Under the pieces are notes generated by a model. It worked only from the letters and a program-made list of their open reading frames with translations. It was not told the DNA's origin and made no database searches. Shown in pieces: positions 16,186 to 27,973 of a stretch of 50,188 bases of DNA. The stretch is from the NCBI GenBank assembly GCA_029547745.1, contig JAKPOQ010000014.1:1-50188 (forward strand). The letters are read 5' to 3'. Source of the stretch: Actinomycetes bacterium (GTDB lineage Bacteria > Actinomycetota > Thermoleophilia > UBA2241). Both the position numbers and the translations under genes were made by a program. The stretch's first letter is position 1; each line of letters begins with the position of its first letter.

Positions 16186-16214
16186 TTGCCGGCGGTGCGG
16201 CAGCAGGCTATACT
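16186..16214 (+). promoter_or_regulatory. Predicted rplJ promoter
   Basis: TTGCCG (16186-16191), 17 bp, TATACT (16209-16214). The start would be near 16221, giving a leader of about 160 nt. Confidence 0.7.
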
Positions 16215-16220
16215 GCCGCT

Positions 16221-16381
16221 CCGCGGTGTGTGAACGCCGCAGCCGATGACGGCCGGTGCTCTGCAGAGGAGCGCAAGGGACCTCCGGGTCCGCCCGCCCG
16301 AGGCGAGCGAGCAGGTGTCTCTCCGGACGCCCGCTCCCGTCCCGGGAGCGGGCGTCTTTGTTGTCCGACGTCGAGGTCGAG
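16221..16381 (+). promoter_or_regulatory. Probable L10 leader with attenuator
   Basis: A structured 5' leader of about 160 nt before rplJ, the usual place of the L10 autoregulatory leader. It holds small stems GCTC/GAGC (16258-16272) and GGACC-TCCG-GGTCC (16278-16291), a CCGAGGCGAGCGAG segment, and an intrinsic terminator just before the gene. L10 binding to such leaders controls read-through into rplJL; assignment rests on position and structure, not on an alignment. Confidence 0.6.
16326..16364 (+). terminator. Attenuator hairpin in the rplJ leader
   Basis: 13-bp stem GACGCCCGCTCCC / GGGAGCGGGCGTC (16326-16338 and 16344-16356), 5-nt loop, then TTTGTTGT. It ends 18 nt before the rplJ start, so transcripts must read through it to make L10. 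Confidence 0.75.
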
Positions 16382-16912
16382 ATGCTGAGACATGAGAAAG
16401 AAGCGGTGATCGACGAGGTCACCGAGTCGCTCCGCGGCAGTGACACGATGTTCGTCAGCGACTATCGCGGACTGACGGTGGCCCAGCTCTCCGAGCTGCG
16501 CGCCAAGCTTCGCGAGAGCGGCGCTCGGTTCCGCGTCGTGAAGAACACGCTGGCTGGTATCGCCGCAGAACGCGCTGGTCGCACCGAGCTTGCTCCGCTG
16601 CTCAGCGGGCCGACGGCGGTCACGTTCTGCGGCGACGATCCTGTCGCCGCCGCAAAGGTGCTGGCCGAGTTCGCCAAGGCGCACCCCCAGCTCGAGCTGC
16701 GCGGCGGCCTGCTCGAGGCGAGCCTCGTCGACGCCGAAGGCGTCAAGACGCTCGCCAGCCTGCCGCCGCGCGACACCCTGATCGCCCAGGTCGTCGGCAC
16801 CATGGCAGCGCCGATGAGCGGCCTGGTCACCGTGCTCCAGGGCATGGTCAGCGGTCTCGTGCGCGCCCTTGACCAGGTGGCGCAGAAGAAGGCGGCCGCC
16901 GGCGAGGCCTGA
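16382..16912 (+). CDS. rplJ: 50S ribosomal protein L10
   Basis: 176 residues of normal length: N-terminal EKEAVIDEVTESL and FVSDYRGLTVAQLSELRAKL, then FRVVKNTLAGIA, and a C-terminal helix that carries L7/L12 dimers. ATG 16382 is preceded by GAGG 5 nt upstream; the frame is open further upstream, but that region is the attenuator leader. The tail QKKAAAGEA is partly duplicated downstream of the stop (see the repeat at 16887-16952). Confidence 0.96.
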   Translation: MLRHEKEAVIDEVTESLRGSDTMFVSDYRGLTVAQLSELRAKLRESGARFRVVKNTLAGIAAERAGRTELAPLLSGPTAVTFCGDDPVAAAKVLAEFAKAHPQLELRGGLLEASLVDAEGVKTLASLPPRDTLIAQVVGTMAAPMSGLVTVLQGMVSGLVRALDQVAQKKAAAGEA

Positions 16913-17019: not shown

Positions 17020-17418
17020 ATGGCGGAGAAGACGATGACGAAAGACGACATGATCGCGGCCATCAAGAACATGACCGTGATCGAGCTCTCGGAGCTCGTC
17101 AAGGCTCTCGAGGAGGAGTTCGGTGTGAGCGCCGCGGCGCCCGTAGCCGTGGCCGCGGCTCCGAACGCCGGTGGCGGCGGAGCTGCTGAAGAGGCGGCTG
17201 AAGAGAAGACGTCGTTCGACGTCGTGCTCACCAGCTTCGGCGACCAGAAGATCCAGGTCATCAAGGTCGTGCGTGCGCTGACCGGCCTCGGTCTGAAGGA
17301 GGCCAAGGACGTGGTCGAGAGCGCTCCCAAAGCCATCAAGGAAGGCGTGACCAAGGACGAGGCCGAGGAGGCCAAGAAGCAGCTCGAAGAGGCGGGCGCC
17401 ACAGTCGAGCTCAAGTAG
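17020..17418 (+). CDS. rplL: 50S ribosomal protein L7/L12
   Basis: 132 residues: N-terminal dimerisation helices ([20 protein letters not shown]), an Ala/Gly hinge ([17 protein letters not shown]) and the C-terminal factor-binding domain ([29 protein letters not shown]). It recruits translation GTPases. A strong terminator follows, so the transcript probably stops here and does not run into rpoB. Confidence 0.97.
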
Positions 17419-17472
17419 AGCCGCACCAGCTTGCCGGGGTTGCCCGGGAGTCCTCGCCTTACGTGTTGGAAC

Positions 17473-17512
17473 GACGGGGGGCGGGCCGGCGGTAGCCGGC
17501 CCGCCCCCCGTC
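17473..17512 (+). terminator. Strong hairpin ending rplJL
   Basis: An 18-bp perfect stem (17473-17490 and 17495-17512) with GGTA loop; arms begin GACGGGGGGCGGGCC. The tail (CGTGTTCG) is poor in T. It lies 55 nt after the rplL stop. Confidence 0.7.
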
Positions 17513-17592
17513 CGTGTTCGAGGCTTTCGTCGGCCAAGGGATGGTCGCCACCTACGTTGGGTCTTCTCGCTCGCGGGTAGTGAGCCCGAACG

Positions 17593-17626
17593 TTGACTTC
17601 CGCTTCCCTGGGGGGTAGGGAGTCAA
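17593..17626 (+). promoter_or_regulatory. Possible promoter overlapping an inverted repeat
   Basis: TTGACT (17593-17598), 17 bp, TAGGGA (17616-17621) is a weak promoter candidate for the two exported-protein genes. It coincides with an inverted repeat TTGACTTCC / GGGAGTCAA (17593-17601 and 17618-17626, one G-T pair), which could be an operator or a hairpin. Confidence 0.35.
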
Positions 17627-17695
17627 GTCGCCTTGCAGCACATGTGCGACGCAGGACCGGGTTCGGTTGGTTCCGCAAGAACGGCGGGAGGGCGT

Positions 17696-19027
17696 ATGGA
17701 CGCGAGACGGCGCCGAAGGATCGCGGCCAGGGTGGCCGGAGTGGTGGTCGCGGCCGGGATCGTGCTCGCCGGGTCCTATGTGCTGCTGGGCACCGGCGGG
17801 CATGACGCGACCGGTGACGGGAACGCGGCCACGCAGGGCGACAAGACGGCGGCAGCAGGCTCCGGCGTGGCGAGCACTACGGTTGCCCGTGTGGAGGACA
17901 CACCTGGTTTGGACCCCGAACTCGCCGTCATCGCCGTCCCACTCGGTACCCAGACCGTGACCCCCGAAGTCAGCGGCAAGCTCATTGGCGCTCAAGGTGG
18001 GACACCCGTCCAGCTGGGTCCAAGGGGCAAACCGGGGATGACCCTGGACCCTTTCGGCTCGCGGGCCACCATGCTCACCACCGATGGTCAGAAGCTGGTC
18101 TACCACTTTTGGCGGCATCTGAGGGAGTTTCCCACGGAGGCGCCCGGTGATCCGGTGGTAGCGGAGGGCACTCCCCTCTTCACGCCGACGATCCGCGCAC
18201 TCGACCTTGCCACGGGCGAGGACTCTGTGCTCGTCTCAGGCGCACGTTCGTTCGCCTTGCGGGCCGACGGCATGTTCGCCTATGCCGAAGGGGTCGAACC
18301 GGACTACCGCTACGACATGCCCTACCTGCAGCGAATCGTGGTGCGCAAGGGGCTCGACGGGCCGCCACAGGTGTGGACGACGAAGGAGGACCGCTACACG
18401 GTGCTGCAGTGGGCTCGCGGCTCCCTGTTCGTGCATCGTGAGCCGGTCGGGGGCGAGCCCGAACTCCTCGTGCTGGATGGGCCCGGCAAGGTGAGGCCGG
18501 TTCTCCCACACGGCGAGCAGTTCATCTGTACCAGCTCCGACGGGTCGCGCATCCTCACGTGGACGGGCGGCGCCGGGACACCCGATCCGCTCGTCCTGCA
18601 TCTGGTCGAATGGCAGGGCGGCAAGCACGTGAGTTCTCTGACTCTCGATGGGCTGCACGATCCCTCAACCGGCGAGCTCGATCCGGGCATCGCCATCACG
18701 GACGGCTCGTGGGAGGGCGACAGGGTCGTCGTGAGCCTCAATGTCGGCGGCCTCGCGCTGCTCTCGGCGAAGGGTGATGAGCTGGCGCTTGAGAAGGTCG
18801 TCACCTTCAGCTACCCGCAGGCGGACCTGAGCAGCGTCGCAGATGTCGAGCTGAGCGGCAGCGGGAACCAGGTCTTCGCGGTGACATGGGAAGGCCCCGA
18901 CGTAGACACGCAGGATCATACCGCGGTGCTGACCTACGACCTTGCCGGCGGCGAGTGCAGCCGTTGGATCTCTCCGGGGGCACGAGCCTTGGTCTGCCTC
19001 GTGTCCAATCCCAGTCGGCCGCGGTAG
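17696..19027 (+). CDS. Membrane-anchored extracytoplasmic protein, possibly beta-propeller
   Basis: 443 residues; I do not recognise a named family. A basic start (MDARRRRRIAARVAG) is followed by a single membrane segment (VVVAAGIVLAGSYVLL) and a Gly/Ala/Asp-rich linker, placing the rest outside the cytoplasm. The body has repeated short blocks such as TPTIRALDLATGEDSVLVSG, DGSRILTW and GSGNQVFAVTWEG, which look like TolB/WD-type propeller blades; this is inference. ATG 17696 has GGGAGGG upstream; the frame continues upstream but lacks a good start. It sits between rplL and rpoB, where ribosomal operons normally have no such gene, and is followed after 7 nt by a second exported-protein gene, suggesting a two-gene unit. 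Confidence 0.75.
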   Translation: MDARRRRRIAARVAGVVVAAGIVLAGSYVLLGTGGHDATGDGNAATQGDKTAAAGSGVASTTVARVEDTPGLDPELAVIAVPLGTQTVTPEVSGKLIGAQGGTPVQLGPRGKPGMTLDPFGSRATMLTTDGQKLVYHFWRHLREFPTEAPGDPVVAEGTPLFTPTIRALDLATGEDSVLVSGARSFALRADGMFAYAEGVEPDYRYDMPYLQRIVVRKGLDGPPQVWTTKEDRYTVLQWARGSLFVHREPVGGEPELLVLDGPGKVRPVLPHGEQFICTSSDGSRILTWTGGAGTPDPLVLHLVEWQGGKHVSSLTLDGLHDPSTGELDPGIAITDGSWEGDRVVVSLNVGGLALLSAKGDELALEKVVTFSYPQADLSSVADVELSGSGNQVFAVTWEGPDVDTQDHTAVLTYDLAGGECSRWISPGARALVCLVSNPSRPR

Positions 19028-19034
19028 GGGGTAG

Positions 19035-19615
19035 ATGATGCCAGCACATGGCTTCTTCGCGATGTGCGTCAAGCTTGTCTCCTCATTCGTTCTGGTAGGA
19101 CTGATCGGGCTATTGTCGTCAGCCAGGGCCGAGGCGGCGTACATCGGCTGGTTCGACTACGCGCGAAACGGGACCCTTGGCAACGGGACCTTGACCTGGA
19201 AGTGGACCAAAGACGACTTCCCCCCGGTGTACTCAGCCTCATGGCGGGGGGCTCCGGCAGCTACTACAACGACGATACCAACGGCTACTTGCCCAGCGGC
19301 TGGTACTCCATCACGGGGCATCGGAACCACTTCGACGGCACTATCAATGGTAGGGTCTGGCGGCTCTCCGACAAGTGGGACTCCCAACACTGCTGCCTTC
19401 GCTCGGGCCTCTTCATCCGCAGAGAGGACACGCCCTTGAATGACCAGGGGACCAGAGAGGAGGAACGCTGGGACGTACCATCCGCCTACTTATCGTTCGG
19501 GTGCGTCAAGGTTTCGTACAGCAACATCGGTGCCGTCCACACCCGGTGGACCGACTATGGGGGTTCCACTGCCCATGGCAGTGGCTTGCCCTATCCACTG
19601 TCCAGCAAGCTGTAG
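19035..19615 (+). pseudogene. Frameshifted gene for a small secreted protein with a GCVKV motif
   Basis: The first frame (from ATG 19035, GGGGG upstream) gives a signal peptide (VSSFVLVGLIGLLSS, then ARAEA) and YIGWFDYARNGTLGNGTLTW up to YSASWRG. The continuation, GSYYNDDTNGYLPSGWYSIT, GHRNHFDG, SGLFIRRED, PSAYLSFGCVKVS and IGAVHTRWTDYGGSTAHG, is in the -1 frame and ends at 19615. The switch falls at a run of six G (19246-19251); one more G would give a continuous protein of about 190 residues. GHRNHF plus SFGCVKV resembles the His...S-x-G-C layout of L,D-transpeptidases, and I recall similar small secreted proteins in Streptomyces, but function is unproven. It could be a true pseudogene or a base-calling error. 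By hand count 19261-19380 is about 58% GC, below rpoB. Confidence 0.7.
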
Positions 19616-19700
19616 GCTCACAACTGAAGCGGGTGCGGCAGTCGAAGGTGCCGTCGGGGAAACCGAGTAGCGGCGTCCAGACGGCTCGCGTGAGCTGTTC

Positions 19701-19736
19701 GAGGGGCCGAGGCGCCGTCAGGCGCCTCGGCCCCTC
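19701..19736 (+). terminator. Strong hairpin ending the exported-protein pair
   Basis: A 16-bp perfect stem GAGGGGCCGAGGCGCC (19701-19716) and its complement (19721-19736) around GTCA. The tail GCCGTTCC lacks a T-run. It isolates the rpoB promoter from upstream transcription. Confidence 0.65.
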
Positions 19737-19835
19737 GCCGTTCCACTTCCGCGAGACGCGCCGCCGTTTGTGTCGCTTGGGCTCTCGCGCGCGTAAGAGA
19801 GAGGGAGGGGAGGTGACGCGCGAGCCAGATGCCTC

Positions 19836-19864
19836 TTGCGTCGACGCCGCAAAGAGAGTATTCT
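19836..19864 (+). promoter_or_regulatory. Predicted rpoBC promoter
   Basis: TTGCGT (19836-19841), 17 bp, TATTCT (19859-19864). The start near 19871 leaves a leader of about 85 nt. It gives rpoBC transcription independent of rplJL. Confidence 0.7.
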
Positions 19865-19954
19865 ACGTTTTCGTGCATCACCTGCGGCCATACCAGTCAC
19901 CTGGTCTGGTGAGCTTCTTCGTCCCCCTTGTTCCCACGACTTGAGGAGCCTCGC

Positions 19955-23680
<3,726 letters not shown>

Positions 23681-23707: not shown

Positions 23708-27973
<4,266 letters not shown>

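Follow-up and report, generated by a model that had tools for sequence, protein, structure and literature searches.

The spacer between rplL and rpoB in this actinobacterial genome holds two genes, here called A and B, that are missing from the same place in its close relatives. We consider the most probable reading (probability of about 0.78) to be that A and B are a horizontally acquired envelope cassette, inserted in a lineage-specific manner between the terminator of rplJL and an independent promoter of rpoBC, and that B has since decayed. The window analyzed is a 50,188-nucleotide stretch, contig C127 of a 2.27-Mb metagenome-assembled genome (MAG), and the named relatives with which it was compared are Actinobacteria MAGs. 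All features discussed lie on the plus strand: rplJ (L10) at 16382-16912, its ATG at 16382 picked from the conserved start region; rplL (L7/L12) at 17020-17418; A (443 amino acids) at 17696-19027; B at 19035-19615; rpoB at 19955-23680, with a TTG start; and rpoC at 23708-27973. The rplL-rpoB spacer is 2,536 bp long, and 7 bp separate A from B. A preliminary description of this DNA had reported two genes between rplL and rpoB, the second with a lower GC content, and both points hold (0.59 to 0.60 in B versus 0.66 in rpoB).

The arrangement of A immediately upstream of B, on one strand, recurs in the window, in eight genomes that belong to a different family of this class (f3), and in the MAG UBA6100, and to judge from gene order the pair is a conserved operon. 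Across a survey of 299 class genomes, relatives of A occur in 14 and relatives of B in 9 (both counts include the window). In all eight B-bearing f3 genomes, A directly precedes B, and the stop and start of the two genes often overlap. The neighborhoods of these relatives in G036, G226, and UBA6100 are not rplL-rpoB; the pair stands between radA and clpC in G036 (f3 genus g25) and upstream of tig-clpP-clpX in UBA6100. As a separate observation, G037 (L080, 1845-2945) carries an A homolog without B, and a lipoprotein-like gene follows it instead.

Gene A encodes a protein with one transmembrane segment, for which a structure model of moderate confidence (pLDDT, 63; pTM, 0.67) predicts an N-terminal helix and a β-propeller ectodomain. 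Among its best fold matches are propeller domains from S9 peptidases and from TolB, with modest TM-scores. Searches of Pfam, NCBIfam, PHROGs, and PADLOC gave zero matches for A, and a plasmid-origin search gave no match. As modeled, A is a β-propeller protein outside any known family.

Sequence comparison places B with the L,D-transpeptidases by descent. Streptomyces proteins annotated as L,D-transpeptidases match B, one such relative passes the Pfam YkuD model (PF03734; 26.9 bits versus a cutoff of 23.4), and an hhalign comparison of B with that protein gave a probability of 99.3%. The His of an FIH(S/T)E-type motif is catalytic in YkuD-type L,D-transpeptidases, and all six aligned B homologs keep this His followed by S-x-G-C. 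The family thus resembles YkuD enzymes in being exported and in retaining these residues in its intact members, but it differs from them in that neither the window B nor the intact A-linked homologs match PF03734, and in that the window copy is frameshifted and lacks the His.

The window B is broken, as far as can be read from its sequence, both by this frameshift and by the lost His. Its signal peptide and start lie in one frame and the remainder, to 19615, in another, and each half, read in its own frame, matches one intact protein of UBA6100 as well as the f3 homologs. The GC3 peak changes frame between about 19215 and 19250, which together with the homolog comparison sites the frameshift near 19240-19250. 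The earlier account of a membrane-anchored and a secreted protein therefore stands in that both genes are present but fails for B as an intact secreted protein, since its signal peptide is encoded and the frame is then lost. Compared with its homologs, the window B has Arg in place of the FIH(S/T)E His, although S-F-G-C is retained, and it has a shortened and changed His-Cys loop and a clipped C terminus. A structure model of B was unusable (pLDDT, 35). It might be argued that B is functional, a full exported enzyme whose shift of frame is either programmed or an artifact of MAG assembly; GC3 is near 0.8 on either side of the switch, the 3′ part is ∼56% identical to the UBA6100 protein, and the change falls within a short run of G, a context prone to slippage and to errors of this kind. 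Sequencing error may be the source of the frame break alone, but the substituted His, the altered loop, and the clipped C terminus are unexplained by one frame error, the remaining window genes are intact, and we regard a functional B as doubtful. Programmed frameshifting is disfavored by the same additional lesions. Intact copies of B are present in other genomes, and decay of the window copy, which we favor, may have been affordable because three further YkuD genes are found in the same genome.

The insertion itself is evident from close relatives. In all nine family genomes that have rplL and rpoB on one contig, same-genus G001 among them, the spacer measures 179 to 282 bp, and a convincing A was not found anywhere in the other 14 family genomes. 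The preliminary description had proposed a stable or recent insertion into a core locus, a claim that would fall if the same two genes stood at this place across the class; they were not found there, and the lineage-specific insertion stands, with the pair located elsewhere in other lineages, while its stability is put in doubt by the broken B. The occurrence of A-B in several class families does indicate that the module is old, and the pair could in principle be ancestral between rplL and rpoB and have been deleted in the other family members. We consider this quite unlikely, as it would require many parallel clean deletions to leave nine of nine linked family genomes empty, and as the neighborhoods read in the three genomes named above differ from rplL-rpoB. 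A lineage-specific insertion, partly decayed, accounts for these patterns. The spacers have diverged too far for its ends to be placed more than approximately. Between 17419 and 19954 we found no integrase or transposase gene, no terminal repeats, and no target duplication, by which a mobile genomic island would be recognized. Misassembly of the MAG is disfavored, since two false joins, each at a clean intergenic point, would have to fall on a single 50-kb contig. Among other origins considered, B was unmatched in phage records and viral contigs and neither gene matched PHROGs, which speaks against a phage source, and PADLOC gave no match to a defense system. Sequence searches against solved structures returned nothing meaningful.

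The pair probably reached the window lineage by horizontal transfer. In the tree of A, the window groups with G037 (family f4) and UBA6100 with 100/100 support, whereas the window rpoB is ∼70% identical to that of f3 and 48 to 55% identical to that of UBA6100; A was not found in 40 relatives of UBA6100. This conflict between gene tree and core gene similarity, along with the absence of the pair from close relatives, points to horizontal acquisition. A high-identity donor was not found (best match, 49%), so that the transfer may be old or may have passed through unsampled lineages.

Signals conserved in the family flank the island. The hairpin that follows rplL (17473-17512), a putative terminator, is a perfect 18-bp inverted repeat, and the hairpin 3′ of the island (19700-19737), also a candidate terminator, is a perfect 17-bp repeat; both have z-scores of about -8 against shuffled sequences and are as strong as originally described. 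The two do not both belong to the island, since the one on the left corresponds to a hairpin that ordinarily follows rplL in this family: a strong hairpin is present 3′ of rplL in at least 7 of the 9 island-less relatives (z, -5.7 to -9.5) and abuts the rpoB -35 element in some of them. The post-rplL hairpin of G006 is weak, and the hairpin match in G004 overlaps the promoter. The window hairpins have no long T-runs and could pass some transcription. The separate rpoB promoter noted earlier is likewise recovered as a promoter-like TTGCGT-17-TATTCT at 19836-19864; its -35 and -10 elements are conserved in 10/10 family genomes, among which the CTTG and TA...T columns do not vary. Downstream of it, the rpoB 5′ leader (19865-19954) contains a small hairpin around CCATACC...GGT, and changes in this hairpin seem to be coordinated across the window, G001, and genomes of genus g6.

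Because the post-rplL hairpin and the rpoB promoter are also present in relatives that lack the pair, the break between rplJL and rpoBC is, on sequence evidence, older than the island, and the RNA polymerase genes appear to have been uncoupled from rplJL already before the insertion. The family pattern speaks against a single rplJL-rpoBC operon, that is, an ancestor with neither terminator nor promoter between rplL and rpoB. The preliminary description had implied that the insertion uncoupled rpoBC from L10-linked control. The island does sit between rplJL and rpoBC, but the same boundary exists in family members without it, and an L10-type leader with its own putative terminator, which would act before rplJ, is still kept, which together render this reading highly improbable. 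The leader occupies 16216-16381 and has three conserved helices, an invariant CCCGAGGCGA, and a terminator-like hairpin at 16325-16357 just 5′ of rplJ; all 11 family genomes compared retain both leader and hairpin. Upstream is a promoter-like TTGCCG-17-TATACT for rplJL (16186-16214), with TATACT kept in the family. Neither the window nor its relatives gave an Rfam match for the leader, and the only known RNA family in the region was a tRNA, but the position and conserved helices fit an L10 leader, and this is probably an unlisted variant working by attenuation.

These features have parallels in characterized systems. In Bacillus subtilis, L10(L12)4 control acts on rplJL via the leader by attenuation (PMC4538822), and the window shares a structured rplJ leader that closes in a terminator-like hairpin just before the gene, although the window leader lacks an Rfam match. 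In Escherichia coli and Streptomyces coelicolor, rplJ-rplL form an operon that starts upstream of rplJ (PMC2904383). In mycobacteria, rpoBC is served by promoters of its own (PMC6181997), similarly separate from rplJL, whereas the window shows one conserved promoter-like site. In Lactobacillaceae, nrdHEF is inserted between rplL and rsmC within the secE-rpoBC-str cluster (PMC8046335). As in the window, a few unrelated genes follow rplL within a cluster that is highly conserved, and they do so in a limited lineage; the window genes differ in encoding envelope proteins, and a sign of long-distance transfer was not found for nrdHEF (PMC8046335), while the tree of A conflicts with rpoB similarity.

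We propose that a cassette encoding a membrane-tethered β-propeller (A) and an exported L,D-transpeptidase-like enzyme (B) entered the spacer horizontally and came to rest after the rplJL operon terminator and before the independent rpoBC promoter. Since this spacer would already have separated two transcription units, inserting genes there would have been cheap, with both core operons working as in relatives. When intact, A and B would share one mRNA, A would most likely hold or regulate B, and B would cross-link peptidoglycan, or couple other components to it, outside the membrane; with the window B decayed, only A would still be able to act as made. In our reading, the insertion adds one more case of a fairly commonplace event and does not rewire the control of RNA polymerase. 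Even a very conserved string of genes can be broken cheaply if the break has a preexisting terminator on one side and a preexisting promoter on the other, and gene order alone is a poor ground for inferring lost regulation. More speculatively, and only as a tentative possibility, A-B may be an envelope module of Actinobacteria that is as yet undescribed and moves horizontally, its membrane-tethered β-propeller representing a new family and anchoring or controlling the partner L,D-transpeptidase, with the terminator-to-promoter gap before rpoB serving as a recurrent landing site for exported-protein genes in the class. For cell wall research, A-B offers a propeller family that still lacks a name and is linked to a transpeptidase-like enzyme.

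The rplL-rpoB spacer tolerates insertions class-wide. Among the matches listed, rplL and rpoB are paired on one contig in 81 class genomes (families f2 and f4 being thinly sampled), and the spacer is shorter than 500 bp in 49 of these and at least 500 bp in 32, with insertions in six families that reach 21 kb. The contents differ and, as named by sequence features, comprise secreted subtilases, a β-helix protein, a sensor kinase pair, an ion channel, and small secreted proteins. Within f2, the rplL-rpoB spacers L054 and L059 each carry two tandem secreted subtilase-like genes, and the spacer L063 carries at least one.
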